From a virus: DNA of 30,661 nt. Shown here in pieces: positions 3 through 19,965 of this stretch. Position 1 is the first letter of the stretch; each line of letters starts with the position of its first letter. Where the stretch lies: the IMG/VR virus record IMGVR_UViG_3300013285_000051, positions 1-30,661 of that record; one strand, 5' to 3'. The position numbers and the translations under genes were made by a program. The notes under the pieces were generated by a model. It did not search any database, was not told the DNA's origin, and was given only the letters and a program-made list of their open reading frames with translations.

Positions 3-62
3 ATCACAGGAGACATTCCTGTGGACTATGGACACCCAAGTACGCCTTATGAATACAGTTAA
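3..62 (+). CDS. 3' end of a possible plus-strand gene (partial, window edge)
   Basis: From the window edge, one plus-strand frame reads open and ends in D-Y-G-H-P-S-T-P-Y-E-Y-S followed by TAA. This looks like a genuine hydrophilic protein tail. The stop overlaps the stop of the convergent metallopeptidase-like gene by a few bases. Only 19 codons are visible, so family and function cannot be judged. A competing reading is a minus-strand gene starting with ATG at 16, but its AGGA would abut the ATG. Confidence 0.3.
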   Translation: MTGDIPVDYGHPSTPYEYS

Positions 63-469
63 CTGATTGATTCTTTTTCAAAGTACTCAGGATGACGCTT
101 GCCCCAGTTGCGCATGACCACAGCGGCCTGGGCGTTGGCGTCATTCTCTTGTGGTGAACCTGTGGCACCAGCGCCGTCGTCTTCAAGTTCATCATTCAAG
201 TCCTGCTTGAAATGCACCATTTCGTGTGCCAGTGTTCTGCACACATCATTAATGTGACGATTCTTCACTGTGATGGTGATGTGTTCTTCACCTGGCATGT
301 AACCGCCAAAGCTCTTGTGTTCCACACTGGACTTGCTGTCAAACACAAAATCAAACTGAGGCAACTTGCTCAGTTCCAAATGCCTTGCCGCAAACCGTAC
401 AAACTCGTGTAGGATAGCAAACGTATCCTTCTTGTTCAAGCCTTCGGCGAGTATTTCAGTAACTTTCAT
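59..469 (-). CDS. SprT/zincin-like metallopeptidase domain protein with capsid-targeting-like leader
   Basis: This 136-residue protein carries a zincin motif, A-H-E-M-V-H-F-K (HExxH near residues 82-86), with acidic residues downstream in E-N-D-A-N-A-Q-A that could supply the third zinc ligand. That pattern is typical of small SprT-like or phage metallopeptidase domains. The N-terminus M-K-V-T-E-I-L-A-E-G matches the T4 internal-protein leader, whose gp21 protease site is (L/I)-x-E. I infer that it may be packaged in the head and processed after E9. Its ATG directly follows the stop of the upstream 526-residue structural gene (TAATATG) without a clear Shine-Dalgarno, suggesting translational coupling. 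The substrate is unknown. Confidence 0.7.
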   Translation of the reverse strand: MKVTEILAEGLNKKDTFAILHEFVRFAARHLELSKLPQFDFVFDSKSSVEHKSFGGYMPGEEHITITVKNRHINDVCRTLAHEMVHFKQDLNDELEDDGAGATGSPQENDANAQAAVVMRNWGKRHPEYFEKESIS

Positions 470-470
470 A

Positions 471-2051
471 TTAGCTCATGGCTTCTTGACAAATCAAGTG
501 TGCGCCCACGGTGCATGTTGCACTGCTAGACACACATACTGACAAAATATCCATTTGATTACCACGAAGCGTATTCAACAATGGAAAGAAATATGTCAAG
601 TCGATATCCTGTACACCAGCACCCGTACTCAGCACAAATGCAAAAACCACTTCACCGCCCGATAATGCGGTAGCACTCACATCACGCTCTGCAAAGCTGT
701 TGGGAGATCCCAAGCTGGCCAATGCATTAAATGTGGCGCCAGTCAATACCACTGGGCTGGTTGGTGTGCTGGCAACAATTTCAATCACAACAGTTTGCGC
801 TGTACTGGTGTTCACTGCCATTAATCTACGTGGCAGTAACTGGCCACGATTCAGCACACCAATGGTGTACGTGGTAGCACTGGCAGCACTGGCACTTAAT
901 ACGCCACCTGTGATGTTGTCCACAAATGTCAGTGTAGTTGCTGTGTTGCTGACGATACGACCAATGGCTCCTGTACCGCCTTGAGTGGTACTTAGACCTT
1001 GCAAATAAACATAACGACCTTTCCAGTAGTCCACTACCCAGTTGGCTCCAGCCGCTACCAGTGTGCTGGTTGATCCGCCTGTTACTGTTCCTGTTGTGCT
1101 ACCTGTTGTACCTGCTACACTGGAACCAGTACTGGCCTGTGTGTATTCAACAGTGCCCATGGCACGACCACGGATACTTAGTACTGGAAAGCGTGTGCTG
1201 GCACCTGAAATACTGCGCACGGGGTTAGCTGGAGACATACCATATGAATACGTGAATCCACGCTGTTGATCCTGTTGTCCTTCCACAATAACTGACACAC
1301 CGTAGTGAAACAGATCATTGGCACCTGAAATAGCACCAGAGTTGCGTTGTTCGTAACGCACTGGCAAGTTACCAGTACGACTCCAGGGCTGTGTGCTGGG
1401 TACTCCGGCTGGGCTAGCATAGTTGGCCCAACCCGTTTGATGAGCAATCACTGGTTCACCGTCGATCCAGAAACCGAAACGTGTAGCACCAGCACCGTAC
1501 CATGCATACTCAATCCAAAACATTTGTATACGTGTAAAGTCCAATTGGCGTATGTTCATCATATCGCCGTTCCACTGATCCAGTGGGAAACGTGCGTCCA
1601 CTACTGCACCGCTTGAATCGCTACGAACCACAACTGCCATGCCAAATGGGTTGGTTGCTGTGGCAGTGCCTTGTTCAAAGAATGCACCGTTGGCATCATC
1701 AAAGAACCCCACACGGGTCACATTGTTGGTCTGTGCTGTGCCCATCAGGCAAGCTGTAGCCATGAACATGGTTTTGCCTGGCTGATAACGATGATATGGA
1801 CGACTTTGACGAATAGCAATATCGCCACTTGCGGTGGTGACTGACATCTTGACTCCGCCCTTGCCGGGTTGGTGTGTGATTGTGGCACCGCCTGTGGTGA
1901 ATGCTTCCCAACGTAAGGGCTGAACGCCATATTCAAAGTCAGCTTCGTAAATATTCTGGTGTATGCTTACTTTCAAGCGTCCCAGCACATCACGTACTCG
2001 TTGTGGCATCGCACTTGATTCATGATAGCCAGTTAGTTTGTTTAATGACAT
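471..2051 (-). CDS. virion structural protein, probably tail- or fibre-associated
   Basis: This 526-residue protein has low Cys and Lys and is rich in Gly, Thr, Ser and Ala. Its N-terminal third (G-V-Q-P-L-R-W-E, then [13 protein letters not shown], then [11 protein letters not shown]) reads like a structural protein type I recognise from marine T4-like phages. Its position in the fibre adds little further. A middle segment (about 285-400) is a low-complexity Gly/Thr/Ser linker followed by beta-rich sequence. There is no signal peptide or catalytic motif. The start is supported by AAAGGA eight bases upstream, and a GATAAATA late promoter lies 62 bases further up. It could be a fibre, a baseplate wedge accessory or a decoration protein; I cannot tell which. 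Confidence 0.7.
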
Positions 2052-2113
2052 AATGGTTTCCTTTCTAGTATTATTTTGGTACGCTAGTACGCACTCAGTT
2101 ATTGTTTCAAAGT

Positions 2114-2121
2114 TATTTATC
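2114..2121 (-). promoter_or_regulatory. T4-type late promoter box (GATAAATA)
   Basis: GATAAATA on the minus strand matches the T4-like late consensus TATAAATA. It precedes the 526-residue structural gene by 62 bases and leaves room for a leader with the AAAGGA ribosome site. It lies back to back with the plus-strand box of hemA. Confidence 0.5.
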
Positions 2122-2124
2122 GTT

Positions 2125-2132
2125 GTTAAATA
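2125..2132 (+). promoter_or_regulatory. late-type promoter box of hemA (GTTAAATA)
   Basis: GTTAAATA ends seven bases before the hemA ATG, and no Shine-Dalgarno sequence is present. If it works like a T4 late promoter (box at about -13 to -6), transcription would begin within two or three bases of the start codon. Only three bases separate it from the minus-strand box. Confidence 0.45.
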
Positions 2133-2139
2133 CGATACT

Positions 2140-3342
2140 ATGATTAATCACGAACCCTTTAAAAAATTAATTGCAGATCTAAAAGACTCAGGCAAATATC
2201 GTGTTTTTAACGATATTGTGCGTGAAACTGGCAAGTTTCCCAGTGCTATTTGGTACGGGCCATACAACATCAAAAGCATTGTGAACTGGTGCAGCAATGA
2301 CTACCTGGGCATGGGACAGAACAAGATAGTGTTGGAAGCCATGCACACTGCGCTGGATCACACTGGTTCAGGTAGTGGTGGCACACGCAACATCGGAGGC
2401 ACAAGCCATTATCATGTGGCTTTGGAACACGAAATTGCCACACTGCACAAGAAAGACAAAGCAGTGTTGTTTAGCAGTGCTTATGTGGCCAACGAATGGA
2501 CGCTGATTGCGCTGGCCAAGATCATTCCCAACATTGAGTACATCAGTGATGCCAACAACCACAACAGTATCATTGTGGGTATACAGCACAGCCGTGCTAA
2601 GAAAGTTGTGTTCCGACACAATGACCTGGAAGATCTAGAGCAGAAACTAAAGATCAGTTTGAGTCAAGGCAATACGCCTTGTGTGGTATTTGAAAGCGTG
2701 TACAGCATGGACGGAGATGTTGGACATATCCAAGAAATATGCCGACTGGCAGAAAAATACCAAGCCATCACTTACATTGATGAAGTCCATGCTGTGGGCC
2801 TGTATGGACCCACAGGTGGCGGCAAAGTAGAAGAACTGGGTCTTGAAAACAAAATTGACATAGTCAATGGCACCTTGGGAAAGGCCTTTGGAGTGCAAGG
2901 TGGTTATATTGCTTGCGACCGGGTTGTGGCTGATGCTGTTCGCAGTGTGGCTGCTGGGTTCATCTTTACAACGTCAATGAGTCCAGTAACTTGCAGTGGT
3001 GCATTGGCTGCTATCAAATGGCTTAAAGATCACAGTGAAGTGCGCGACAAGCATCAAGAACGTGCTAGAAAACTCAAACACAGATTAAAATCAGCGGGTA
3101 TTCCTGTTATGGAATGCAGCGCTAGCCACATTGTGCCAGTGTTGGTGGGCGATGCCAAACGTTCCAAAGCCATGAGCGATGCATTGCTAACTGATTACAG
3201 CATATATGTACAGAGTATAAACTATCCCACGGTGCCTGAAGGAACTGAACGACTGAGATTTGCACCTACTCCGTTTCATGATGATGGTATGATTGAGGAC
3301 CTGGTGGCAGCACTGGTAGACGTGTTCAAACGTACATACTGA
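2140..3342 (+). CDS. hemA: 5-aminolevulinate synthase (ALAS, C4 pathway)
   Basis: This 400-residue PLP enzyme condenses glycine and succinyl-CoA to 5-aminolevulinate, the first step of tetrapyrrole synthesis in alphaproteobacteria. It is colinear with Rhodobacter HemA as I recall it. Visible matches are N-D-Y-L-G-M-G (53-59), the ALAS-specific G-G-T-R-N-I-x-G-T (80-88), [26 protein letters not shown] with PLP-binding Asp214/His217, N-G-T-L-G-K-A-F-G with catalytic Lys248, and P-T-V-P-x-G-T-E-R-L-R. T-R-N-I rather than V-R-F-I argues against the paralogue 2-amino-3-ketobutyrate ligase. Length and motifs are intact, so it should be active. It is a lone plus-strand gene in a minus-strand late region and overlaps the following gene tail to tail. 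A longer in-frame start at 2038 lacks homologous sequence. Confidence 0.95.
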
Positions 3343-3562
3343 TCAATTCCATGATGCCGTAGAACAATGCAGCCTTGATATGGTCTGCGTTGGCTTGCTC
3401 TTGAAGTTGTTGAGTACTTATCATGTCTTGTAACACTTCCTTGGCTTCGCTTGTGCTCATTCGTCCAGCTTGAACAGCTTGATTGATTTGCAGTGCGTAG
3501 CTTGCACGATCTGCACACCATCCATCGCCGCTGGCTGCTACTTGCATCAGTTGATCACTCAT
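3326..3562 (-). CDS. small hypothetical protein downstream of lipoprotein gene
   Basis: This 78-residue soluble, mostly helical protein starts M-S-D-Q-L-M-Q and is preceded by a good GGGAGA ribosome site. I do not recognise a family. The middle ([16 protein letters not shown]) looks like a helix-turn-helix hairpin but without DNA-binding character. It begins one base after the stop of the lipoprotein gene and so is probably cotranslated with it. Its last 17 bases are antisense to the 3' end of hemA. Confidence 0.7.
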
Positions 3563-3563
3563 T

Positions 3564-3944
3564 TTAAAATCTCCCTTGAACAGTGGTTGCGATAATGTCA
3601 GCTTGTTGTACCAAAATCTTTTTCTTGATGTCACAGTAGGCAGGACTTACTGGCCCTTGTGCTGTTCTATCTTGGAATTCTTTCACAGTGATCAGCATGG
3701 TCTGCCCCAGCTTGACCATGTCTTGAGTGCGTTTGGTAGCAGCATAGATATCGTACCATTCCAGTCGCATGAACAGCACATGTAGTTGCGGTTTCAAATC
3801 TGCGTTGCAATTGATGTGGCGAGTCATTTGCTGAATGTCGGTGATCACTGCACTTTGATTGGCATCCCAAAAGCTGGGAATTTGATCAGTAATGGCACTG
3901 CATCCAGCCAACGCCAACACCATTATGGATAGTAATTTTTTCAT
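3564..3944 (-). CDS. phage-encoded lipoprotein
   Basis: This 126-residue protein has a classic type II signal peptide: M-K-K, a hydrophobic core and the lipobox L-A-G-C (Cys15). It would be lipidated and anchored in the inner or outer membrane. The mature part is helical, with two further cysteines (N-C near 48 and Y-C near 104) that could form a periplasmic disulfide. Its start overlaps the stop of the upstream nucleotidase gene by ATGA. Phage lipoproteins are known as superinfection-exclusion factors or outer spanins. This one lacks the short proline-rich form of Rz1, so exclusion or an unknown envelope role is more likely. That is inference. Confidence 0.8.
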   Translation of the reverse strand: MKKLLSIMVLALAGCSAITDQIPSFWDANQSAVITDIQQMTRHINCNADLKPQLHVLFMRLEWYDIYAATKRTQDMVKLGQTMLITVKEFQDRTAQGPVSPAYCDIKKKILVQQADIIATTVQGRF

Positions 3945-4606
3945 AATTCACTTTTCTTATTAAGGTCGACAGCAACAGTGTCAGTTGGTTGTGCAATAAT
4001 GTTTGATGCTGTATTGCTGTCTGGTTTCACTTCATGTTTTTCATGCTTGGCGGCGCCACCGATCACATCAAGAGCATGTGATAATCCCTTGGCTACCACA
4101 GACAAACTGTCTTCGTCTGCTTGATATTTGATACCAATACCGCCTGCGGCTTCCCAAGCATTGATATTTTTTCGCAAATCATCAATCAGTACATTTGGTG
4201 TGCCATCAGACTGCACAGCATATTTGGCCTTGTTGGATGTGATTATGATTTCTCTAGGAGCTGGACGCAGATGTTTGCTGATCCACTGGCGCTTTTGATG
4301 TTCACTGTTTTCATGATCACCACGCAATGGACTGGAGCAGATTCTGTATGCATCAAATCCTTTGGCTCTGGTAACCAAATTGATCAATGCATCAGCTGTG
4401 CGAAATTTGGGTAAACGAGCAAAAAAATCAGTGCCCACCATTTTTTGCAAAGTGGGATCAGTTTTTGCAGGAGGAATATCTCTCCAATTGCCACTTGTGA
4501 TACCCGCTAGTTTTGCATACTCTGAAAAAAAGTCAGCAAGTACACCATCCATGTCCACATAGATTTTCGGCATGCCACGCTGGGGTAAAAAATCATTTGC
4601 TCTCAT
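3941..4606 (-). CDS. HAD-superfamily 5'(3')-nucleotidase-like phosphatase with degenerate packaging leader
   Basis: The 221-residue product has HAD motif I, V-D-M-D-G-V-L-A-D-F (residues 17-26), and a motif IV-like L-I-D-D-L-R-K-N-I, matching the phage/bacterial NT5C-type deoxyribonucleotidase family. A likely role is dephosphorylating nucleotides during host DNA salvage. The chosen ATG at 4606 follows a GGA-containing site. A TTG at 4663 would add 19 residues with no domain match. From 4606 the protein begins M-R-A-N-D-F-L-P-Q-R-G. This resembles M-R-A-H-E-F-T-N-E of the gene at 15301 but lacks the cleavage Glu. A C-terminal tail of about 60 polar residues extends beyond the catalytic domain. 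Confidence 0.75.
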   Translation of the reverse strand: MRANDFLPQRGMPKIYVDMDGVLADFFSEYAKLAGITSGNWRDIPPAKTDPTLQKMVGTDFFARLPKFRTADALINLVTRAKGFDAYRICSSPLRGDHENSEHQKRQWISKHLRPAPREIIITSNKAKYAVQSDGTPNVLIDDLRKNINAWEAAGGIGIKYQADEDSLSVVAKGLSHALDVIGGAAKHEKHEVKPDSNTASNIIAQPTDTVAVDLNKKSEL

Positions 4607-4659
4607 AATAAATTCCAGCAAGCCCGCACCCAAATTGGGCCAGTGATTGGTAAATGTGT

Positions 4660-5563: not shown

Positions 5564-5588
5564 TTGAGGACCCTGTAATTAAGTGCTT

Positions 5589-9042: not shown

Positions 9043-11316
9043 TTAAGCTCCGATCGCTAGGATGTAAGGTGTCATTACTGCAAACAAACTCTTGGTAAAT
9101 GTTCTACCAGAGATTGTGCCTGTATTTTGATTGATCACAAAGTCACTGCCAATTCTAAAGTCTCCACGCTGGTCAGTGCCAGTGTAAAAGATCTTGCCTT
9201 GGTTCAGTGACACTGCTTGATTAGCTGTGATTGGAATTCCGCCCAGATAAGGCAGTGCTGTGTCCACGTTTGTGCCAGCGCCGATCCATTCAAACGTGTG
9301 TCCTGCTGCGGTGATTCTACTGAACTGTTGAAAACTCACCGCAGCTCCGTCCGCAATGGCCACCAGTACATTTTCTTCCAACACAATGGTGCTGGTATAG
9401 GCGTTGACTATCAAATTGGTCACAATGTCAAACAGCGCATTGGTTTGAGTAGCTTCTGCGGCACTTGCTGTAGAGCTGCCGGTGTTTTGTGTTGCTACAC
9501 TGTTTAGTCTTGATATGGGTGTGTTTACCACACAGGCAGCAACCACTGATCGAATGTATGTGAAAGTAGCGGCTGTGGCAGCCTGCTGGCCACCTGGCAC
9601 TTGCAGTGCGCCTGCACTGTAATATGCGTCCGCAGCATCTGCTGTTTGGCTGTTGCCACCGTACAACACATCGTATGTCACAGCATCCACTATCAGTCCA
9701 ATGTCTCTGCGGCATTTGGTTTGATTGTAAGTCAATGCGGGATAATTTATAGTGATGTAGGCAATGCCTTCTTCAATAATAAAACTTCTATTGGCCTGTA
9801 TAATGGCCAATGCTTTGGGCTTGTTGGCATCCACACCCACAGGGCTGGGGTACACATAAGCAGGAGCTGTTCCACCTGCCATGATGGCCAGTATGATGTC
9901 AAAGTTGTTGCTGACCAGGGTGCGTTGTGCGCCCGCTGTCATCAGTGCCAGCACAGCAGTTTTGGCAAAGTTCACGCCGGCCAAGGTCTGTGGTAGTTGG
10001 CCGCTGATCACCACACTGGCAGTGGCCAAAGTGTAGCTGATGCCGGCCTGTATGCTTTTGTAATTGGTGCCAAACATCATGTCGTCAATTACTGCGTCAA
10101 TGATTAGGCCCACATCACGTGAACATTTGAACTCATTGAACTGAAAGGTTGGATAAGTTTTATAAAGATAATTGATAGTGTCTATCTGTACTTTGCTCTT
10201 GCCATCCAACACTGTTTGTCTCAAATTGATAGCAGTGGCTGATTGGTTTGAATAGCTGGGTGTAACAATTGCAGTGGCAGCCACTGTGAATGCTGTGCTA
10301 CTGGCCACTGTGTAATAAGTGCTGTCACCTGCAAACAGCACAGCATCGCCCACATTGGGACGAGTGGAAAGATTGTATATGACAAACGAAGTACCAGCTG
10401 TTGCACCATTGAGTTTGCCTGTGTATAGCACAGTGCTGACTCCGTCTGACTTTAGTGCATAGTTGCCAAAACTGCTGTTGCTATTGGTAATGGAACAAAA
10501 CCCGCCGCTCTCACACAAAAAGCCCACAGAGCAACAGATTGTGAACACTGACACCAGCTGTGCGTTGCCTCTGTTCAGCATGTGAATACCAAGGCCGCCT
10601 TGGTTGTATTGTGTAAACGCATCCACCACCATGGATCTAAGTCCACTTGCATAAGCACCGTCCACTCTCATGCCAGCACCAGTGGTGGTCATTGATGTGC
10701 AGTTTTGCACATATGGGCTGGTGTGTATGATGCCTGCACTGCCGTCTGGATTGAATGCCACCGCTGCTCCGGGACTTTCGTGATCTTTGAAAGTCATGTG
10801 TGCAAGATAGGATCTGTTGTTTACCCAGAACAAGTCCAGTGTTTTGTTCAAGGGGCGCACTGTGACAGTGCGTAGGTCGTCGCCCACAACAGCCACACCT
10901 GCTGGCACAGTCATGGGGTTGGTTTCTGTATAGTCTCCGCTTTTGACAAAAATGGTAGTGCCGTAGGCAGCTACGGCTAATGCAGCCCCGATTGTGAGTT
11001 TTGAATATTGCAGCGATGACCCTGTATTGGCATCGCTGCCGCTTTTGCTCACATACAGCACGTTGGTGGCTGTGCCCACAGCAGGGTCAGCACCCAAAGT
11101 GATATCTTGAGATCCGTCAAATGCAATACCGTTGATGTTGCGGGCAGCTATCAGTTTGGTTGCAGTAGCGGAATTGCCTGCCAACACATAACCTTTTAGT
11201 GCTGCCAACGTGGTTTGTTCAGTGGTCAGTGTAGCACCTACAAGTGCGTTCAATGCAACTGTGTTGGCATCAGCAAGAGTACTGGCCGATGGTAGTTCTG
11301 AAAATTTTATGCTCAT
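9043..11316 (-). CDS. 757-residue tail protein with beta-helix domain and duplicated Cys-Arg-Asp motif
   Basis: Residues 1-85 form a linker typical of fibre attachment regions. About 85-300 look like a right-handed beta-helix of the pectate-lyase/DUF1565 type (L-Y-V-S-K-S-G-S-D-A-N-T-G-S, then T-I-F-V-K-S-G-D-Y-T-E). A helical module then occurs twice, near 398-420 and 535-560, as K-C-[SR]-R-D-[VI]-G-L-I-[IV]-D-A-V. This duplicated module is familiar from structural proteins of marine T4-like phages. The C-terminus (G-R-T-F-T-K-S-L-F-A-V) may be a trimerisation end. There is no Shine-Dalgarno, and an AATAAATA box ends five bases before ATG. It may be a tailspike, but I see no catalytic residues. 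Confidence 0.8.
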   Translation of the reverse strand: MSIKFSELPSASTLADANTVALNALVGATLTTEQTTLAALKGYVLAGNSATATKLIAARNINGIAFDGSQDITLGADPAVGTATNVLYVSKSGSDANTGSSLQYSKLTIGAALAVAAYGTTIFVKSGDYTETNPMTVPAGVAVVGDDLRTVTVRPLNKTLDLFWVNNRSYLAHMTFKDHESPGAAVAFNPDGSAGIIHTSPYVQNCTSMTTTGAGMRVDGAYASGLRSMVVDAFTQYNQGGLGIHMLNRGNAQLVSVFTICCSVGFLCESGGFCSITNSNSSFGNYALKSDGVSTVLYTGKLNGATAGTSFVIYNLSTRPNVGDAVLFAGDSTYYTVASSTAFTVAATAIVTPSYSNQSATAINLRQTVLDGKSKVQIDTINYLYKTYPTFQFNEFKCSRDVGLIIDAVIDDMMFGTNYKSIQAGISYTLATASVVISGQLPQTLAGVNFAKTAVLALMTAGAQRTLVSNNFDIILAIMAGGTAPAYVYPSPVGVDANKPKALAIIQANRSFIIEEGIAYITINYPALTYNQTKCRRDIGLIVDAVTYDVLYGGNSQTADAADAYYSAGALQVPGGQQAATAATFTYIRSVVAACVVNTPISRLNSVATQNTGSSTASAAEATQTNALFDIVTNLIVNAYTSTIVLEENVLVAIADGAAVSFQQFSRITAAGHTFEWIGAGTNVDTALPYLGGIPITANQAVSLNQGKIFYTGTDQRGDFRIGSDFVINQNTGTISGRTFTKSLFAVMTPYILAIGA

Positions 11317-11361: not shown

Positions 11362-11796
11362 TCAAAAGCTGTTGTTGAACCAGCCTATCTTTTTGCCCCG
11401 AATAACACGATTATCATGTTCTGCAACACTGCCAGGGAACCGCCATGCCCATACTGCCACAAAACACATGAATATGCCTGTGTAGCACACAACTTTAGTG
11501 GGCACAGTAAAGCTCATGATGATCAAACTGGTGCTCATCATGGCCAGCATAAAGAATTTCATCCTAGTGGGGAACACACGTTTTTCGTTCCAGTTGGTTA
11601 GGAACGGTCCAAAAATCTTGTGATTGTACAACCAGGCATGCATCCGGGGTGAACCTTTGGCAAAGCAATAGGCCGCGGCCACCACAAAGCAACTGTAGGG
11701 TATGCCGGGCGTGACCAGCCCAACATACGCCATACCTAAACTAAGGAATCCTAATACTGTCCACAGCACCCGTTTCACAGTATGAATTGTGACCAT
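11362..11796 (-). CDS. DUF454 (YbaN-like) inner-membrane protein
   Basis: The 144-residue protein matches the DUF454/YbaN family: an N-terminal R-x-L-W-x-x-L-G-F-L-S-L-G, then V-T-P-G-I-P in place of the usual L-P-G-L-P-T, then C-F-A-K-G-S-P-R, then F-G-P-F-L-x-N-W, then two more hydrophobic segments. I count four likely membrane segments. Function is unknown in bacteria. The start overlaps the HNH gene by 22 bases, so both should be translated from the 12345-12373 promoter transcript. It is an uncommon cargo for a phage and may alter the host envelope, which is inference. Confidence 0.8.
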   Translation of the reverse strand: MVTIHTVKRVLWTVLGFLSLGMAYVGLVTPGIPYSCFVVAAAYCFAKGSPRMHAWLYNHKIFGPFLTNWNEKRVFPTRMKFFMLAMMSTSLIIMSFTVPTKVVCYTGIFMCFVAVWAWRFPGSVAEHDNRVIRGKKIGWFNNSF

Positions 11797-12379: not shown

Positions 12380-12928
12380 TTACAGCAAGATGTTTTGGGC
12401 AAACTCTAACCCACTGCGATCCAAGCACTTGCACCACTGGTCTTTTTGATCTGATTCAAAAACCAAATCCCAATCTGCTTGGCTGGTGCACCAACTGTTT
12501 TCGTGTTTCCAAGGAGCAGTGCCTTTCATTTCAGCTTCCAACTGTCCAGGACCCCAGCCACACAGACCCAAAAACATTCTCCAATATTTGGGATGGTCGC
12601 CCATGCTTAGTCTGGGCACAATGTCATCAGCACTGCTTAAACTAAAGTGTTGGTTGATCCTCAGTGTGTTTTTACTGCGCCATTCAGGACTGTGTAAAAA
12701 ACTAAGGCTGTGTTGACTTATGGGCCCGCCTTGGTACACATGCCCTGGCACAGCCAACGGGGTACCAATTTGAGAGCCGAAGTTTTCAATTGACATTGAG
12801 CTGCGTTTGTTTAACACAACCCCAACACTGCCATTTGAGTGATGTTCTGTTATCATTATCACAGTCTTGTACCAAAAACTGCCTTTGATCACCGGAGGTG
12901 CTATTAATAAATTTCCTACTAGATTCAT
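12380..12928 (-). CDS. yqgE: YqgE/AlgH (UPF0301) family protein
   Basis: The 182-residue protein matches YqgE/AlgH along its length: start M-N-L-V-G-N-L-L-I-A-P-P, then F-x-x-T-V-I-M-I-T-E-H-x-x-x-G-S-V-G-V-V-L-N-K, Y-Q-G-G-P, and G-L-C-G-W-G-P-G-Q-L-E-A-E. In bacteria the family is conserved but poorly understood; AlgH was named for alginate regulation. The longer start at 12958 lies inside the upstream gene and is not homologous, so ATG 12928 is chosen. It has no Shine-Dalgarno, and GGTAAATA ends five bases upstream. A likely host-derived accessory gene. Confidence 0.93.
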   Translation of the reverse strand: MNLVGNLLIAPPVIKGSFWYKTVIMITEHHSNGSVGVVLNKRSSMSIENFGSQIGTPLAVPGHVYQGGPISQHSLSFLHSPEWRSKNTLRINQHFSLSSADDIVPRLSMGDHPKYWRMFLGLCGWGPGQLEAEMKGTAPWKHENSWCTSQADWDLVFESDQKDQWCKCLDRSGLEFAQNILL

Positions 12929-12933
12929 GTAGG

Positions 12934-12941
12934 TATTTACC
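12934..12941 (-). promoter_or_regulatory. late-type box (GGTAAATA) filling the gap before yqgE
   Basis: The 13 bases between the stop of the hydrolase gene and the yqgE ATG consist of GGTAAATA plus five bases. There is no space for a ribosome-binding site downstream of the expected transcription start. Confidence 0.45.
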
Positions 12942-14396
12942 TTATGCTGCAAACACACTTTGACCTTTTACTTCTCCTCCTTTGGCTAATAGTTTTTGTT
13001 TATAGCTGATCGAGGCTCTGCCTTTGTATGCAGCATCTATGTTGGATGTAAAGTTTATAATATTGTGCGGCACGCCGGGCAGTACTTTAATAGCAGCATT
13101 TGATATTAATTTAAGATTACGAATTGGTAAACTTTCTAGTCTACTTGCTTCTCGTCCGCTGGCACCAGTAACTGGTTCAAATTGGCTTGGTGCTGTAACA
13201 ACACTCATAACAGTTCCGCCCCATGTGCCTTTTCTAACACGATTCAATATGGCTCCTAGCACATATCCGCAACCGTCTAAAGATGCTTCTTCTGCACCGG
13301 TAACTTTAACCAGTGCAGTCCATTCTTCATCACTCATTTTCCTGCCGAGATACTTGTCAGAACTTTCTCTAGCTTCTTGAACAGTAGCATCATTAGTTGT
13401 TAATAGATCACCAACTGAAGCAGTTTCAGATCCACCTAGCTGACTGGCTTTGACATCTGAAGAAGTGCTCTTGGTCAAGCCTTTGGCCAGTGACGGCTTG
13501 GCCATAAGCATTTTGTTCATGGCCCCCACAGTGTCTGGTCCAGGATCGCCGTCCACAGTTAATCCAGCAAATGCTTGAAACTTTTCAACTGCTTTGGTTG
13601 TGTAAGGTCCACGAATGCCGTCAACACCAGCAGAACCCAAATCATATCCCAATGCTTGCAATAGTTTTTGCACATCTGCTACTTCAGTACCACGACGTCC
13701 TTGAGGCACAGCTAGACTGAATACTTCGTTGGCTTTGCCGGCTTGGTTCTTTTGTCCTTTTTTGTCAGTGGGTTTCTTGACATCTGCACCAGGTGTGACG
13801 GGTTTTGCTGCACCAGCTGTGGCTGGTTCATTGCTGTTGCCCAACAAGGCCACGATCTTGGCTGCTGCTTCTTTGTATGCGTTGGGAGTAGCGTGTACTC
13901 CATCTGACAAGCCTTGCCCTTCCAAATCCACAATGGGCACACCCACTGCAGATTTGATAGCTTGTCGCACCTTTTCCTGATACTCGCCGCCATAGTAAGG
14001 TTTGATCTTTGGGTCACCGTTGGGAAACAGCACAAACACAACTTTGCATCCTTTTGCACGGGCTGCATTCACTATGCTGGCCACATTGCTGGCTATCTTG
14101 CCTGGATCCACCAAAGGAGTTTTACCCTTGCTGTCTTGGAAAGCTCTTGAGCTGTTGGCTGCATCATTACACCCTTGTGCAATCACCACATTGGAGCCAT
14201 TTGGAGCGTTCTCAATTCCAGTGACATGACCGTGATAGTTGCCACTGTAATTTGTTCGGCTGGTACTGGGTTGGCCACCATGTGCAAGATTAATTATGCC
14301 TTTGCCGTAGGCAAGTCCTTCTGCATGGCTGTCTCCGATGGCATACACAGGTGAGTTGTTTTGCTGGGCTTCAGTTATGATGTCTAAAATTTTCAT
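12942..14396 (-). CDS. SGNH hydrolase + peptidoglycan-binding + SleB-like hydrolase, with capsid-targeting-like leader
   Basis: This 484-residue protein has three domains. Residues 15-190 are an SGNH esterase (G-D-S-H-A-E-G with Ser23, G-C-N-D with Asn77, and D-G-V-H with Asp165/His168). About 233-297 is a PG_binding_1 domain (D-V-Q-K-L-L-Q-A-L-G-Y, then V-D-G-I-R-G-P-Y-T-T-K-A-V). About 356-470 is a Hydrolase_2/SleB-like cell-wall hydrolase (G-A-E-E-A with a candidate catalytic Glu, then G-A-I-L-N-R-V-R-K-G-T-W, then A-P-S-Q-F-E). It begins M-K-I-L-D-I-I-T-E-A, matching the T4 internal-protein leader. I infer a virion enzyme that deacetylates and cuts peptidoglycan during genome delivery. 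A longer start at 14441 would add 15 unrelated residues. Confidence 0.88.
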   Translation of the reverse strand: MKILDIITEAQQNNSPVYAIGDSHAEGLAYGKGIINLAHGGQPSTSRTNYSGNYHGHVTGIENAPNGSNVVIAQGCNDAANSSRAFQDSKGKTPLVDPGKIASNVASIVNAARAKGCKVVFVLFPNGDPKIKPYYGGEYQEKVRQAIKSAVGVPIVDLEGQGLSDGVHATPNAYKEAAAKIVALLGNSNEPATAGAAKPVTPGADVKKPTDKKGQKNQAGKANEVFSLAVPQGRRGTEVADVQKLLQALGYDLGSAGVDGIRGPYTTKAVEKFQAFAGLTVDGDPGPDTVGAMNKMLMAKPSLAKGLTKSTSSDVKASQLGGSETASVGDLLTTNDATVQEARESSDKYLGRKMSDEEWTALVKVTGAEEASLDGCGYVLGAILNRVRKGTWGGTVMSVVTAPSQFEPVTGASGREASRLESLPIRNLKLISNAAIKVLPGVPHNIINFTSNIDAAYKGRASISYKQKLLAKGGEVKGQSVFAA

Positions 14397-14400
14397 CAGT

Positions 14401-14688
14401 TTATTGGCCTTTACGGGTACCGTAATCAGGCAGCGGGCCACCGTAGGTCTTGCCCTTAATCTTTTTGCCGCCCACTGTGATTCTCACCTTGGCATTGCCG
14501 TGCCCAATCAAATGACTCTTTTCGCCGTCTCTAGCACGAAGCCCTTGGCTTTTACAGCTGGCTAGATTGCTGGCACCCAGTTTGTCGTCGGGCTTTCTGC
14601 TGACACACAGCGCATGTGAGGCCTTGCCGTGTTCCAATAAATCGCCACAATTTGGGCAAAGGTTTTCGCTTAGTTCGAATATTTTCAT
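14401..14688 (-). CDS. small Cys-containing basic protein with capsid-targeting-like leader
   Basis: The 95-residue protein starts M-K-I-F-E-L-S-E-N, then C-P-N-C-G (a zinc-knuckle-like pair), a third and fourth Cys (A-L-C-V-S, A-S-C-K-S), and a strongly basic Gly-rich tail (G-G-K-K-I-K-G-K-T-Y-G-G-P-L-P-D-Y). The tail resembles one seen on small proteins of T4-like marine phages. The charge suggests DNA binding, perhaps packaged with the genome. A start at 14739 is open but lies inside the next gene. The chosen ATG has AATAAATA seven bases upstream and no Shine-Dalgarno. Confidence 0.75.
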   Translation of the reverse strand: MKIFELSENLCPNCGDLLEHGKASHALCVSRKPDDKLGASNLASCKSQGLRARDGEKSHLIGHGNAKVRITVGGKKIKGKTYGGPLPDYGTRKGQ

Positions 14689-14695
14689 GATGTTG

Positions 14696-14703: not shown

Positions 14704-15301
14704 GATTTTGTTGGGGCACTGCATTGCCAGCTGTGGCAAAGTTCTGCACCGTTGCTTTGCGATTTTGTTTGCCTGCGGCTCCTATGGTGTCGGCTTGCCC
14801 ACGCACAGTCATTGCATAAGGATTGTCAGCATATTCGGGAGCATTGGGATTGGCATCAATCTTTTCTTTTTCAGCACCCGCAGCAAAGGCAGGAGCAGCC
14901 AATAAAGTAGCTGGAGTCATAGCTGTGGACATGGAGCCAAGAGCTCCTCCAGTGGCTGAAGCAATTTTGGGAATTTTGTTAACAATACTGGCCACTGTGG
15001 CCGCAGAGCTGGAATTACTCAGCGCATCTGTCACAGCTCTGAATGCCTCAGGTGAGCCCTTGAGCCAAGGCAGCAAGGCCTGTACAGCACCTATAGTTGC
15101 CAATGTTCTATTTTTGGCAAGATTCTGAACAGCTTGTATCAAGCCAGGAACTGATGCCATGCTGGACGCTAGTTCTTTGTCTATCACATGCTCAGCAGCT
15201 TTTCCCACACCATAGCCTGCGCCAGTTGATGCAGCAGCGGTGGCTTGCGCACTGGTTACTTTGGGTAATTTAACTTCGTTAGTGAATTCATGTGCTCTCA
15301 T
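14699..15301 (-). CDS. Ala-rich amphipathic protein with capsid-targeting-like leader
   Basis: The 200-residue protein begins M-R-A-H-E-F-T-N-E-V, close to the T4 leader in form. The rest is about a quarter Ala, with weakly hydrophobic helical stretches (A-S-T-G-A-G-Y-G-V-G; G-A-L-G-S-M-S-T-A-M-T-P-A-T-L-L-A-A-P) and a polar tail. There are no Cys and no known domain. Such composition is common in ejected internal virion proteins that interact with membranes, but this is only a compositional argument. It is one of three leader-bearing genes in a row (15301, 14688, 14396). Confidence 0.7.
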   Translation of the reverse strand: MRAHEFTNEVKLPKVTSAQATAAASTGAGYGVGKAAEHVIDKELASSMASVPGLIQAVQNLAKNRTLATIGAVQALLPWLKGSPEAFRAVTDALSNSSSAATVASIVNKIPKIASATGGALGSMSTAMTPATLLAAPAFAAGAEKEKIDANPNAPEYADNPYAMTVRGQADTIGAAGKQNRKATVQNFATAGNAVPQQNQ

Positions 15302-15308
15302 AGTTACT

Positions 15309-15316
15309 TATTTATT
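15309..15316 (-). promoter_or_regulatory. late-type box (AATAAATA) containing the upstream stop codon
   Basis: AATAAATA ends seven bases before ATG 15301. The TAA of the epimerase gene (15312-15314) lies within it, the same geometry as at 14696-14703. No Shine-Dalgarno follows. Confidence 0.5.
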
Positions 15317-16130: not shown

Positions 16131-16135
16131 ACTGA

Positions 16136-16143
16136 TATTTACT
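16136..16143 (-). promoter_or_regulatory. late-type box (AGTAAATA) containing the upstream stop codon
   Basis: AGTAAATA ends five bases before the epimerase ATG. The HNH gene's TAA stop (16139-16141) lies inside it. The promoter would switch transcription from the early ParB-like/HNH pair to late genes. Confidence 0.45.
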
Positions 16144-16606
16144 GTTTATGTCTTACGTCATGGTTAATCACGGTCTTTACCCAATGGCAAAATGAACAGT
16201 ATGCATTGATATTTTCTTTGGCATCCGATCCGCCATCTGCTTTGCGAAAATCGTGGTCTCCGTGATTGTAGCGACGTTTGATTTCGTGCTTTTGATCTTC
16301 TGTCAATACTATACCAAAAAATGCTTGTGCCTTTTTCCATCTTGGATCAGTATTGATATCTTGTTCACAGCATTCACAAATATCTGCTCTATGAAAAGTA
16401 TGCGGGCGATGAATTTTGCCATATCCGCCATACTCCACACATTCAAGTTGATGCAAGCGACACAAGCTGTCGCTGCCAGGACCTTCGAACAGGGTCAGTC
16501 CTGTATTGCATCCTTCAATACTGCACACAGATTTTAGTCTAGCTTGTTCCACAAGGACACTGAATCCTTTTTGTTTATCTTTGTTCGGGTCGCGAAATGT
16601 TTTCAT
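16139..16606 (-). CDS. HNH-type endonuclease paired with ParB-like protein
   Basis: The 155-residue protein has two Cys clusters (C-S-I-E-G-C near 28-33; C-E-C-C near 77-80) and a terminal HNH core: H-G-D-H-D-F (115-120), E-N-I-N-A-Y-C-S-F-C-H (131-141). This fits a phage HNH recombination-endonuclease-VII-like or HNH family enzyme with extra zinc ligands. ATG 16606 follows the stop of the ParB-like gene by one base (TAATATG), so the two should be cotranslated. A start at 16642 would lie within that gene. Its target is unknown. Confidence 0.75.
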   Translation of the reverse strand: MKTFRDPNKDKQKGFSVLVEQARLKSVCSIEGCNTGLTLFEGPGSDSLCRLHQLECVEYGGYGKIHRPHTFHRADICECCEQDINTDPRWKKAQAFFGIVLTEDQKHEIKRRYNHGDHDFRKADGGSDAKENINAYCSFCHWVKTVINHDVRHKQ

Positions 16607-16607
16607 A

Positions 16608-17753
16608 TTACCACAAGTCCTTTGCAGAAACAGTAAATCCATTGTTGGCAGAATAGTTAGGAGTTTTTAGCTTGGTGCTTTTTCTAATCTGTGCGATCAG
16701 GAATGGAATGCCCGTGCGCATCTCTGATGTGAATCCACGCAATCCTGAATCAGCATAGGACTGTGGATTGGCATTTGCATACCAAGACTCGTAGGACATT
16801 TTGACTTTGTCCCAGAACGGACCATTGGGCCCAAAGTCAGCATCAAAATTTTGTTTTGTAAAATTCACAAACTCCAGTAGATAGGCATCATCTACAGTAA
16901 CACCCTGCTCATGACACAGGTTAAAGTATTCGTACAACTGTCTAGCTTCCTTGGGTTCCACAGGACGTTGCTGATTCAAAAAACTCCAATACTGTGCAAA
17001 CATGCGAGTCACTGCTGGATGCTTGCGTGTCTTCAAACTCTTGCTCATCAGTGTATCTGCCAGCAATGTGAACGCACCCGGTTGGTCTTCATCGCCAAAC
17101 TTTGCATGCGTGGCAAACAAGCCAGCAGCCGCAAGATAATCATTCTTAAGTGCGGTATCAACCCACTCTTGATCGTCTGCTTTATCAATTTTGACACCAA
17201 ATACCATCTGAATATACTTGTCGATAAAGTCCAACTCTCGTTTGGCATCACCGTTAAGCAAAATAAAGTTACGACGAATTTCTAATTTGTGTTTTACACT
17301 GTACACCACTACCGGAACAAGGGTGTTGGCAGTTTGTTCACCAAACACTTTGGTAAGAATAATGTAAAGTGTGATGGCAGTGTGCTGCCCATCCCATGCT
17401 ATGTAGTAGCCAGGTTTGTTTTCATCTTCATACACTTGAATAGCCATGGTCATTGTGCTACGAAAGTGTTGAAGAATACTCAATATGTGTCGCAGATCAA
17501 GACTGCGTTGCATGGTGGCGTCAATTAGGATCTTGTCCATCGGAACCATAATTGCTTTGCACAAGTTAAGGTCGGAGAACGTTAACCAATTTGCATGTCT
17601 ACGTTTGTATTCGTCCACCATTGCGGTCAACATGTTCACAAACACTGGAGCAAATTTAAGTGCATCTGCTAGACGTTGTTGCAACGTGACAAAATGACTA
17701 GTTGATTTGAGATAACGCCCGTTGATTGTTTGAGCGTGGGTACTTTGTGTCAT
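16608..17753 (-). CDS. ParB/sulfiredoxin-like D-G-Q-H protein
   Basis: The 381-residue protein has a ParB-type N-terminal domain (about 65-175): V-P-M-D-K-I-L, then R-S-L-D-L-R-H-I, then Y-Y-I-A-W-D-G-Q-H-T-A-I (117-127), the D-G-Q-H/Q signature shared by ParB-like, DUF262 and DGQHR families, which bind or hydrolyse nucleotides. The remaining 200 residues are helical, with N-F-x-x-L-N-G-D and W-S-F-L-N-Q. The start is fixed by AAAGGAAA. It is transcribed from a consensus early promoter through an 85-base leader with two hairpins and is followed one base later by an HNH gene. Together they resemble a split nuclease of the DUF262/HNH (GmrSD-like) arrangement, which is inference. Confidence 0.75.
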   Translation of the reverse strand: MTQSTHAQTINGRYLKSTSHFVTLQQRLADALKFAPVFVNMLTAMVDEYKRRHANWLTFSDLNLCKAIMVPMDKILIDATMQRSLDLRHILSILQHFRSTMTMAIQVYEDENKPGYYIAWDGQHTAITLYIILTKVFGEQTANTLVPVVVYSVKHKLEIRRNFILLNGDAKRELDFIDKYIQMVFGVKIDKADDQEWVDTALKNDYLAAAGLFATHAKFGDEDQPGAFTLLADTLMSKSLKTRKHPAVTRMFAQYWSFLNQQRPVEPKEARQLYEYFNLCHEQGVTVDDAYLLEFVNFTKQNFDADFGPNGPFWDKVKMSYESWYANANPQSYADSGLRGFTSEMRTGIPFLIAQIRKSTKLKTPNYSANNGFTVSAKDLW

Positions 17754-17771
17754 AATATAATTTCCTTTTGT

Positions 17772-17809
17772 GGGCTTCTCTTGCCCTATTGTTTGGTCTT
17801 CTCTTGACC
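17772..17809 (-). promoter_or_regulatory. two tandem 5'-leader hairpins with identical loop and different stems
   Basis: On the transcribed (minus) strand, GGTC-AAGAGAA-GACC (17795-17809) is followed by GGGC-AAGAGAA-GCCC (17772-17786). Both stems have four base pairs and the same seven-base loop. The stems differ by a paired (compensatory) change. They lie between the predicted transcription start near 17838 and the ribosome site, just ahead of ATG 17753. This looks like a duplicated binding site for a translational repressor. Confidence 0.6.
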
Positions 17810-17844
17810 GTTATCACACAGCAGAATTACTATGCAACATAGTT

Positions 17845-17873
17845 ATTATACTATCCAGTAATCAGGCAGTCAA
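17845..17873 (-). promoter_or_regulatory. sigma70-type early promoter TTGACT-N17-TATAAT
   Basis: The -35 is TTGACT at 17868-17873, the spacer is 17 bases and the -10 is TATAAT at 17845-17850. The TGA stop of the upstream 85-residue gene is embedded in the -35 hexamer. It drives the ParB-like/HNH pair. Confidence 0.88.
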
Positions 17874-18127
17874 CTGTACTTGAATTCTTTTGGAATCAAA
17901 ATGCCCAAATTGCTAGCTTGCTTGCGCAGTGCAGCCAACTTAGCCACTGTAGGACCTTCCCATGCAATACTGTACGCATAATCAAATGTGTTACCAAACA
18001 CAGATGCTTCCAGCCATCTTAATTCGTTTTTGCTTTTGATTAGAAATTCAACCCATGCTCCAGCTGTGTTTGTTATTTGAACACGCTCATTAAAGTATTT
18101 GTGCAAGTACAAATCTATGGTCCGCAT
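17870..18127 (-). CDS. small early protein of unknown function
   Basis: The 85-residue protein starts M-R-T-I-D-L-Y-L-H-K-Y-F-N-E-R-V and has mixed alpha/beta character with two Trp and no Cys. I do not recognise a family. It starts one base after the preceding gene's stop and ends inside the -35 box of the next promoter. It is the last member of a four-gene cluster (18845-17870). Confidence 0.65.
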   Translation of the reverse strand: MRTIDLYLHKYFNERVQITNTAGAWVEFLIKSKNELRWLEASVFGNTFDYAYSIAWEGPTVAKLAALRKQASNLGILIPKEFKYS

Positions 18128-18128
18128 G

Positions 18129-18341
18129 TTAATTTATAAGTGGACGGAATCGGCGGGCAAACACCTCCCAGCGGCAATTGAACTCCTGCAGGGTAGCTTG
18201 ATTAACGTAAGTTACCCATGTGTCATTGTTTTCAGCTGGGCAGTACAGTGCAGTCACTACAAATTTAATGCCATCAACACTGATCCACTCTTTGATGGAT
18301 TTTTGTGCGTTGATCAAATCTTCTGTGGTGTATGTGGTCAT
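18129..18341 (-). CDS. small early protein of unknown function
   Basis: The 70-residue protein starts M-T-T-Y-T-T-E-D-L-I-N-A-Q-K at an ATG that overlaps the preceding stop as ATGA. The upstream in-frame extension to 18389 is inside the previous gene and unlikely. It contains D-G-I-K-F-V-V-T-A-L-Y and W-V-T-Y-V-N and ends in a basic R-W-x-V-F-A-R-R-F-R. No family is recognised. Confidence 0.62.
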   Translation of the reverse strand: MTTYTTEDLINAQKSIKEWISVDGIKFVVTALYCPAENNDTWVTYVNQATLQEFNCRWEVFARRFRPLIN

Positions 18342-18556
18342 AGCATGTTTCCTGGATCTGCTTGTTCGATGATGTCCAACTGCTCCCAAACATATTTCAA
18401 TAGGTCTTTACCCACAGCTGGCTCCATGGTCATCAGCAGTGTGACACGACTCAACAGCATAGCAGTGACGCTGTGTGCTTCAAACACATCTTCATATTTG
18501 AATATCAGCGTGTCCAATTCATCAATAAAACTGTTCAAAGCTTCTGGGTTATCCAT
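18338..18556 (-). CDS. small acidic helical protein
   Basis: The 72-residue protein is acidic and almost fully helical (M-D-N-P-E-A-L-N-S-F-I-D-E-L-D-T-L-I-F-K-Y-E-D-V-F). It overlaps both neighbours by a few bases, a typical translationally coupled early phage gene. No motif indicates a function. Confidence 0.62.
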   Translation of the reverse strand: MDNPEALNSFIDELDTLIFKYEDVFEAHSVTAMLLSRVTLLMTMEPAVGKDLLKYVWEQLDIIEQADPGNML

Positions 18557-18845
18557 TCACTATCATCCTTATCAATCCAGTTGTGTCTATACTCACCAGC
18601 AAGATGTAGTTAGCCAGCATGCCAAATGATTTCCTAGTATAACTAGCCCAAGCATACATAGCACAGCCAGCAATCCAAACAGGATACAAAGCAAGTAAGG
18701 GAGGGCTTGGCACAGTGAGTGCCATAGTGATCGAACATCCAACGCTGATCGCCCAAGCCAAAAGCTCAATAGCGAAACGATAAGGATTAGTGCGATAGTC
18801 ATCTCGGATCCAATCAAATGTGGGTTTTAATATATTATCAATCAT
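18549..18845 (-). CDS. small membrane protein
   Basis: The 98-residue protein starts M-I-D-N-I-L-K-P-T-F-D-W-I-R-D-D-Y-R-T-N-P-Y-R and has two to three hydrophobic segments (about 28-45, 47-66, 75-92), so it is an inner-membrane protein. The start at 18845 gives a soluble N-terminal arm; the longer reading to 18911 would enter the divergent promoter region. It is the first gene of a four-gene early cluster. Function is unknown; small membrane proteins in this position in T4-like phages often affect superinfection or lysis timing. Confidence 0.65.
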   Translation of the reverse strand: MIDNILKPTFDWIRDDYRTNPYRFAIELLAWAISVGCSITMALTVPSPPLLALYPVWIAGCAMYAWASYTRKSFGMLANYILLVSIDTTGLIRMIVNG

Positions 18846-18850
18846 ATAGT

Positions 18851-18879
18851 ATTTTAGCACAAAATACCAATCAATACAA
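18851..18879 (-). promoter_or_regulatory. putative sigma70-type early promoter TTGTAT-N17-TAAAAT
   Basis: TTGTAT (18874-18879), 17-base spacer, TAAAAT (18851-18856) precede the small membrane protein gene. The match is weaker than for the TTGACT/TATAAT promoters, and the predicted start leaves no room for a ribosome site. Confidence 0.45.
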
Positions 18880-18888
18880 CAATCTTGA

Positions 18889-18896
18889 AATAAATA
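18889..18896 (+). promoter_or_regulatory. T4-type late promoter box (AATAAATA) abutting the start codon
   Basis: AATAAATA ends four bases before ATG 18901 on the plus strand, and no Shine-Dalgarno is present. It is the sole visible promoter of the isolated nucleotidyltransferase gene, so that gene should be expressed late. Confidence 0.55.
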
Positions 18897-18900
18897 CTTG

Positions 18901-19965
18901 ATGAAAATCATAGAAATTATTCAAGAAGGCGGCTGGACCACTGGAGATAATCCAGGTATCCAAGCCAAAGTGGTAAAGCATGGCATGGCCGCAGTTGAAC
19001 ATTTTCTCAAAGATTTCAACCCTTGGTTAGCACAGCAAAATTTAGGCCCAGTTCAAATAGGGCACCCTACTGGATCAGCTGCATATCACCAATTGGATGA
19101 CCCGGAAAACACCATCTACGGCGACATGGATCTGCAGATCATTATCCCAGACATGCCTGAATACGACAACCTAACCAGCGGACAAGTACAAGGACGTTGG
19201 GCCACACTGATTGACAAGTTTATACACAGTCACACCTTGAGCTACATAGACCCAGCAGAAAGCAAAGGCAGTCAGCCCATGTTCATTTTGAGTAGTGGTG
19301 ACAAGGTGCAAGTGGACTTGATGCCGCATCCAGTCAAAACAGCTGAATGGGGACGATTCCGTGCCACAGGCGAGCACGGACTGAAGGGCCTATTGAACGG
19401 CAATATCTTTGCCACCATGAGCGAATTGATTCCAGTCAACTTGCAACACAAAGGTGTACAGTACAAAACTATAAACGGCAAAAAAGTCAGTTACGGCAAA
19501 ACGCTCAAAGGCTATGACCTACACACCTTGGGCACAGATATCAAAACATGGATACTGGACATATTCCAGCATGAAGCACAGCAGTTGGGTATTCGCAATC
19601 CGCAGATTGATCCGCTGTTGCAAGCCAATCCAGGTGTTGATGTGAACGATGTCAACGTGGAACGACAAGTGAACGGCATCAAAGGATTTGCTCGTAGCTG
19701 TGAACTGAACAAAATGTTTGGACAGGGTGACTTGGAACAGTTCAGTTCAGCCGATGACTTCTTGCAAAAGTTCACTCATCACTATGTGGAGAAATCACAG
19801 CATGCCATCACAGCACCCAAACGTGACAAGGCCAGCACAGCTGCCAGTCAAGCCCGTGCTGTGAAAGATCGTGCAGCACTGGCCAGTGGTTTGGAATATG
19901 TTAAAAAATTGTTCGCAGGCCAGGTTGCAGGACAGCGATACCAAGACTATAAATCCAGTCAATAA
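18901..19965 (+). CDS. nucleotidyltransferase-fold protein with capsid-targeting-like leader
   Basis: This 354-residue protein shows the polymerase-beta/MNT-type active site: G-S (58-59), Y-G-D-M-D-L (Asp75, Asp77) and a third acidic residue in V-Q-V-D-L-M (Asp139). Such enzymes transfer NMP groups to RNA, protein or small molecules. The C-terminal half is helical and ends in a basic tail. The leader M-K-I-I-E-I-I-Q-E-G-G closely matches T4 internal-protein leaders, with predicted cleavage after Glu9. The gene stands alone on the plus strand with its own late box and terminator. I infer a packaged enzyme that modifies a host molecule on entry, as T4 Alt does by different chemistry. The substrate is unknown. 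Confidence 0.8.
   Translation: MKIIEIIQEGGWTTGDNPGIQAKVVKHGMAAVEHFLKDFNPWLAQQNLGPVQIGHPTGSAAYHQLDDPENTIYGDMDLQIIIPDMPEYDNLTSGQVQGRWATLIDKFIHSHTLSYIDPAESKGSQPMFILSSGDKVQVDLMPHPVKTAEWGRFRATGEHGLKGLLNGNIFATMSELIPVNLQHKGVQYKTINGKKVSYGKTLKGYDLHTLGTDIKTWILDIFQHEAQQLGIRNPQIDPLLQANPGVDVNDVNVERQVNGIKGFARSCELNKMFGQGDLEQFSSADDFLQKFTHHYVEKSQHAITAPKRDKASTAASQARAVKDRAALASGLEYVKKLFAGQVAGQRYQDYKSSQ

Follow-up and report, generated by a model that had tools for sequence, protein, structure and literature searches.

The question raised by this locus is why proteins of unrelated function should open with nearly the same few residues. The locus lies in a 30,661-bp IMG/VR fragment (IMGVR_UViG_3300013285_000051) of a T4-like, cyanomyovirus-type phage, and the whole of this stretch is called the window here. 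Six of its proteins, named below after their start positions, begin with a short leader, which an earlier note on this DNA had compared with the capsid-targeting sequence (CTS) of phage T4 internal proteins (IPs). The leaders are confirmed as a real, non-random observation. We read them as gp21-type, T4-like capsid-targeting propeptides which serve targeting and processing of diverse cargo, with a probability of roughly 85%. This reading has gained support from the portability of the tag, a T4 control, the cut site of gp23, the bias at the residue following the predicted cut (P1'), the retained junctions, gp21 in relatives and a precedent in cyanophage S-SM1.

The CTS concept is already known from T4. 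The first ten residues of IPIII are sufficient for packaging; residues 4 and 7 serve targeting whereas 8 and 10 serve processing, an Asp at position 10 prevents processing yet leaves targeting intact, and gp21 cuts after L/I-x-E (PMC9026906). Like the tags of IPI, IPII, IPIII and Alt, the environmental leaders are N-terminal tags of about ten residues with spaced hydrophobic residues, a terminal (L/I)-x-E and unrelated bodies, and a gp21 homologue is found in relatives. Their hydrophobic residues 3, 6 and 7 and Glu9 reproduce the T4 spacing. Unlike the T4 tags, they mostly have one residue less (M(K/R)IxEIIxE, M(K/R)AxEFIxE) and are found on many enzyme families, and some of the environmental cargo bodies also occur in fusions, downstream of an internal LxE junction. 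In the T4 genome, used as positive control, the strict motif recovered only IPIII, IPII and gp61.1; with position 2 left free, gp24, Alt and a few weak additional matches were also recovered. The published Alt propeptide has seven residues (PMC9026906), so the actual Alt cut lies inside the motif match. Similar junctions are present in T4 gp24 (MAKINELLRE/S, the slash marking the cut) and gp23 (FLTE/A) and in the gp23 of relatives (KYLxE/(A/S/N)); these are shell proteins, whereas the environmental junction is found on non-shell proteins. The N-terminus of T4 gp2, the DNA-end protector (gene 2; L274 26061-26885), is also leader-like (MAIFQIINE/S).

All six N-termini were found as the earlier note had given them, namely MKVTEILAEG (469, minus strand), MKILDIITEA (14396, minus), MKIFELSEN (14688, minus), MRAHEFTNEV (15301, minus), MKIIEIIQEGG (18901, plus) and the degenerate MRANDFLPQ (4606, minus), in which Gln stands in place of the expected Glu. 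The starts at 14396, 14688 and 18901 are internal ATGs of slightly longer open reading frames (ORFs), and they are supported because homologues bear leaders at the same point. The (L/I)-x-E end attributed to the leaders is present in 469, 14396, 18901 and 14688 but not in 15301 (T-N-E, with Thr at P3) or 4606 (L-P-Q, with Gln at P1). The 14688 leader (MKIFELSE) is also degenerate, being one residue short; homologues of both degenerate-leader proteins, 14688 and 4606, carry intact leaders. With a one-residue shift, the hydrophobic residues of 469, 14396 and 18901 fit T4 positions 4, 7 and 8, while the fit is loose for 14688 and only partial for 15301 (A3, T7) and 4606 (A3). A relaxed motif (M-K/R, two or three residues, E/D, hydrophobic, hydrophobic or T/S/N/A, any residue, E, at an ORF-opening ATG) occurred four times in the window (469, 14396, 15301 and 18901), and two permuted motifs did not occur there. 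Pooled phage sequence holds about 0.13 permuted motifs per 100 kb, giving about 0.04 expected in the window, and the Poisson P for at least four matches is ~1e-7, rising to 4e-6 if that rate is raised 2.5-fold. The relaxed motif was found at none of 175 internal Met positions of window proteins. It was also absent from 824 kb of control phage contigs, an indirect test of whether such leaders are equally common in unrelated genes.

The tag is not confined to this fragment. The back-translated pattern MKIxEIIxE was found in at least 120 IMG/VR stretches, against 91 for a permuted pattern of equal composition across the whole collection. Among the matches listed, 120 of 123 leader matches open an ORF (at least 50 aa or running off the contig), and the bodies behind the listed leaders form 49 BLAST clusters, whereas 32 of the 71 control proteins belong to one family. 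The same leader loci yielded 47 further leaders with other residues (MRAxEFIxE, MKSxEFLxE and others; relaxed motif), and pooling with homologue loci gave 319 leader ORFs with 85 body families. Portability on unrelated bodies, as the earlier note had proposed, is seen both in the 49 non-homologous clusters and in NT5C proteins that occur with and without the leader. Tagged bodies outside the window include NUDIX, lytic transglycosylase (SLT), peptidoglycan (PG)-binding hydrolases, amidoligase, LysM, kinase-like proteins, DUF6267 and others. A high leader density in every T4-like genome was ruled out, since complete T4-like contigs have about 1-5 leaders each. In three loci (L034, L059 and L036) there are 3-6 adjoining leader-bearing genes of the MRAxEF and MKSxEF types, whose bodies are unrelated to one another; YRG and FHYTS/LYHVT proteins of ADP-ribosyltransferase (ART)-like appearance are among them. 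The YRG proteins of L036 and L047 have conserved YRG and FRS motifs, no Pfam match and a model pLDDT of just 39; they could be Alt-like ADP-ribosyltransferases.

These counts bear on two explanations in which the leader carries no protein signal. Many proteins start with MK, and a few pattern matches, such as a lysozyme in L079, are probably accidental, so the similar N-termini might have been picked by chance out of many ORFs; the window Poisson values and the independent recovery in homologues and more than 100 contigs argue against this, and it was already refuted by the permuted-motif and control-loci scans, which leaves it a negligible probability. The likeness might otherwise reflect a translation-initiation preference, with A-rich early codons and a late promoter near the ATG. 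Many leader genes have an ATAAATA box about 12 nt before the ATG and few recognisable ribosome sites. However, leader codons vary synonymously (AAA/AAG, ATT/ATC/ATA and GAA/GAG are all present), and hence the constraint is at the protein level; moreover, the same box precedes genes without a leader at similar frequency and permuted motifs of the same residues are not enriched, so that initiation is a very improbable cause. The (A)TAAATA box lies about 10-14 nt before the ATG of window genes 14688, 15301, 11316 and 16130 (minus) and 18901 (plus) and in L011-L130, where no clear ribosome-binding site accompanies it; ahead of genes in related loci its enrichment is about 14-fold. An excess of such late-promoter boxes at leader genes was ruled out, other genes having about the same frequency. 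With T4 late-promoter spacing, transcription would begin at or beside the ATG and, by analogy, late mRNAs may be leaderless.

Homologues of the window proteins show how the leader and body combine. Close homologues of the 469 protein (at least 70% identity) retain an intact leader (MKVKEILTEG, MRAKEFLAEG or MLVKEILTEG), and in one of 81% identity MRAKEFLAEG replaces MKVxEILxEG. NT5C bodies 59-71% identical to that of the window have an intact leader (MRAREFIIEN, MRIREIIKEE), none (MSKPEVYLDMDG) or a fusion. The NT5C leader may have been gained repeatedly and independently: the tree suggests three changes, though no more than one is forced by well-supported branches. In the family of the basic Cys protein (14688), which has no Pfam or PHROG match above threshold, the KASRALC body is found directly behind leaders (MRANEFINE/KAS, MKIHEIISE/EGKAS) or behind an unrelated upstream region, and the second site L-L-E19/HGKAS is common to the homologues. 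Searches with tblastn found cultured homologues of the 14396 protein for its PG-binding domain only, and its further Pfam matches are below the cut-off (PF13472 E=7e-6, PF07486 E=4e-5). The 18901 protein, for which tblastn found no cultured homologue, has the motifs PTGS..YGDMDLQ and DKVQVDLM, and homologues conserve PTGS...YGD(M/I)DLQ and D-x-V-Q-(V/I)-D; the G-S...D-x-D signature plus a third Asp of Pol-beta-type nucleotidyltransferases (NTases) is thus present. Its AlphaFold2 (AF2) model is of medium confidence (pLDDT 69), with OAS1 and CD-NTases as top PDB matches (E=2e-3, prob 0.95).

Further, the P1' bias, the retained junctions and the match to capsid cut sites, all read from sequence, point to cleavage after the Glu. 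At P1', a position that the search pattern left free, 68 of 113 leaders have A/S/G/T, whereas 196 of 782 other proteins have one of these at residue 10 (p=4e-13); bulky or basic residues are scarce at P1' (p=2e-18). The constraint on the junction is seen in the fused Cys family, where 16 of 20 non-redundant junctions (perhaps about five independent contexts, in our judgement) have (L/I)xE no more than 7 residues from the KAS body, compared with 8.7% of control windows; the remaining four carry V-x-E. An NTase homologue (L010) has an unrelated 87-aa extension with its own leader, yet retains L-Y-E/GGW where others have I-x-E/GGW. Such retention of the cut site amid changed surroundings is what proteolytic processing predicts.

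The gp21-type protease and the capsid cut sites, which the earlier note had suggested identifying, were found in relatives and not in the window, where no gp20-gp24 head module, gp21 and gp23 included, was seen. All seven leader contigs of at least 130 kb encode the protease (PF03420); it occurs in 10 of 39 leader contigs overall against 3 of 41 control contigs, and in five of eight records of at least 130 kb encoding window-homologous proteins, a 356-kb and a 141-kb record among them. Three relatives (G086, G096 and G099) have gp21 together with an LxE motif in gp23. At the T4 gp23 cut position the major capsid proteins of these phages read KYLSE/N, KYLVE/S, KQLTE/S, KMLAE/N, KYLGE/A (G096), KYLME/S and KYLLE/S, with KYL(L/M)E/S in the 356-kb and 141-kb records. 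An ungapped alignment that spans the gp21 cut site pairs T4 gp61.1 (54 aa; L273 18966-19130) with residues 57-93 of T4 gp23 (score 82, 0 of 2000 shuffles). Likewise, an environmental small leader protein, MKIHEIIKE/TATAGATSAANV, matches the capsid protein of its own genome, KYLVE/SPTAGATSAGNV (0 of 1000 shuffles for the full sequence and 10 of 1000 once the leader is left off), and the leader-end Glu therefore aligns with the capsid Glu expected to be cleaved. gp61.1 and the small leader proteins may be mimics of the gp23 N-arm. In L015, L118 and L025, too, the small leader proteins are similar to the post-cut part of the capsid protein of the same phage.

Cyanophage S-SM1 provides what comes nearest to direct evidence for a tagged enzyme in the particle. 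Published proteomics by mass spectrometry (MS) detected 41 proteins in its purified virions, the cytidylyltransferase T4-GC190 among them; the text consulted gives no processing at the Glu (PMC3037559). This nucleotidyl-transferring enzyme, from a different enzyme family than the window NTase, begins with a T4-type leader (MKKFSAFLNE/A), and cleavage at its Glu is predicted. The motif alone was not significant in S-SM1, permuted motifs being about as frequent. The S-CRM01 cytidyltransferase begins with MKLFNQFFKE/A; leaders are also found on its neighbours, one of them annotated as a kinase (MISFDQFLSE). The P-HM1 version as annotated has no leader.

For the window phage we infer targeting, cleavage, packaging and ejection in the following order. 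Late in infection, hydrophobic residues 3, 6 and 7 (T4 4, 7 and 8) would dock the protein in the prohead core, and the gp21-type protease would then cut behind the Glu of (L/I)-x-E, freeing the cargo within the head. In silico, packaging is well supported. The cargo would remain with the DNA and most likely be ejected into the next host; actual injection, by analogy with T4 Alt and the IPs, is probable, with less assurance than the targeting role. The window cargo would comprise the metallopeptidase-like protein, the SGNH/PG-binding hydrolase, the NTase and the basic Cys protein, and, less certainly, the Ala-rich protein and the NT5C deoxyribonucleotidase.

The tag could alternatively be a prohead-core targeting and processing peptide on proteins which mostly assemble heads or stay internal and are not injected effectors. 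T4 gp24 and core proteins are gp21 substrates of this kind, several tagged families consist of small, basic proteins that lack an assigned function, and the resemblance of gp61.1 and similar small proteins to the gp23 cut junction would fit an assembly role. On the other hand, many bodies are enzymes without an obvious assembly role (NUDIX, transglycosylase SLT, PG-binding hydrolases, NT5C, amidoligase, kinase-like), and T4 Alt and many IPs enter the host by ejection (PMC9026906), so we regard a predominantly structural role as unlikely. Routing to the tail or baseplate, the Glu motif being incidental, would suit the position of the window genes amid tail and structural genes and the cell-wall hydrolase among the cargo, as tail lysins would be; the identity of the motif with that of T4 head substrates, the match to the gp23 cut context in the same genomes and the P1' bias make it improbable. 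Some observations weigh against the capsid-targeting reading itself. Two of the six leaders (15301 and 4606) lack the canonical P3 or P1 cleavage residue; gp21 and gp23 are absent from the 30-kb fragment and the protease was found in relatives only, three of the eight records of at least 130 kb with window-homologous proteins giving no gp21 match; the fused Cys junctions are partly related, with a zinc-ribbon context dominating; and some complete T4-like contigs have just one or two leaders, which makes the clustering in the window unusual.

Iyer, Aravind and colleagues had earlier predicted the packaging of NUDIX, ART, peptidase and kinase domains, on the basis of gene neighbourhood and of fusions between domains (PMC5512222, PMC9503650). 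Their polyvalent proteins and NAD-ADP-ribose (NAD-ADPr) systems, proposed to be head-packaged, overlap with the present cargo classes (metallopeptidases, kinases, NUDIX, ART-like); the term 'capsid targeting' is absent from PMC5512222. The leader hence gives independent support for head packaging of such domains. Extension of the CTS principle to T4-like phages has been suggested in a review (PMC9026906). A literature search on capsid targeting in T4-like phages and metagenomes found no papers, absence elsewhere being unproven; what looks new is how broadly uncultured phages use the tag, that its cargo includes enzymes, that fusion junctions retain the cut site, and that the leader end matches the cut site in the phages' own capsid protein. 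The T4 capsid-targeting idea is thereby extended to a large group of uncultured phages, and the tag can be used as a sequence-only predictor of head-packaged, probably injected proteins, which otherwise needs proteomics of cultured phages. Several hundred environmental phage proteins that lack an assigned function become testable candidates for early host takeover or counter-defence. The chances are about even that an interchangeable head-address and cleavage tag forms a general delivery platform of uncultured T4-like phages, carrying dozens of enzyme families, with cargo swapped behind the tag and internal-LxE precursors cut by gp21 into several packaged products.

Table 1. Leaders, leader-bearing proteins and neighbouring features of the window (slash, predicted cut).
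Feature	Position	Strand	Evidence or remark
Leader MKVTEILAE/G	443..469	-	predicted cut L-A-E9/G
HExxH metallopeptidase-like protein, 136 aa (AHEMVHF)	59..469	-	PF14891 Peptidase_M91 E=0.004 (weak, below cut-off); phrog_16532 E=1e-6
Virion structural protein, neighbour of the 469 gene	471..2051	-	phrog_1645 E=3e-69; cyanophage virion structural proteins by tblastn
Degenerate leader MRANDFLPQ	4580..4606	-	P1 not Glu; homologues MRAREFIIE (L282/L283), MRIREIIKE (L297) or no leader
NT5C-type 5'(3')-deoxyribonucleotidase, leader-bearing paralogue	3941..4606	-	PF06941 E=8e-7; phrog_2643 E=4e-24
Tail fibre protein	9043..11316	-	phrog_17885 E=3e-83; ATAAATA box upstream
Leader MKILDIITE/A	14370..14396	-	predicted cut I-T-E9/A; homologues MKILEIILE/S (L130), MRFNEFKVVLKE/D (L003)
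SGNH/GDSL + PG_binding_1 + Hydrolase_2 cell-wall enzyme, 484 aa	12942..14396	-	PF01471 E=7.5e-17
Leader MKIFELSE and short Cys segment	14632..14688	-	second site L-L-E19/HGKAS; homologues have KAS body right behind (L/I)xE
Basic Cys protein, 95 aa (KASxxLC..GAS.LASCKSQG)	14401..14688	-	72 homologous IMG/VR loci
Leader MRAHEFTNE	15275..15301	-	motif match, non-canonical P3 Thr; ATAAATA box upstream of ATG
Ala-rich protein, 200 aa	14699..15301	-	no Pfam or PHROG family match
Leader MKIIEIIQE/G	18901..18927	+	predicted cut I-Q-E9/GGW; homologues MKISDIITE/GGW
Pol-beta-superfamily NTase, 354 aa	18901..19965	+	conserved motifs and fold model
NT5C paralogue without leader (internal comparison)	24867..25364	-	PF06941 E=2e-11; N-terminus MIIYLDVDDVVADW
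rIIA-like gene	28180-30357

In the remainder of the window, which has no near relative among 50,697 phage records by megablast, a pyridoxal phosphate (PLP)-dependent, alpha-oxoamine-synthase-like enzyme (2038-3342, plus; Aminotran_1_2 E=4e-62) lies on the strand opposite to its neighbours and is possibly an auxiliary metabolic gene. A non-specific DNA/RNA endonuclease (PF01223; 4742-5563, minus) with an apparent signal peptide adjoins the leader-bearing NT5C gene, and the phage also encodes an AlgH-like DUF179 protein (12380-12958, minus) and a DUF454 protein (11362-11796, minus). About ten small, overlapping, consecutive ORFs at 22318-25588 (minus) have a C-terminal motif like (N/D)WFxLRW in common (e.g. 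...NHANWFVLRWT, ...KDLDWFVLRWSS and ...RDWFILRWID), and apparently form a tandem array of diverged paralogues.

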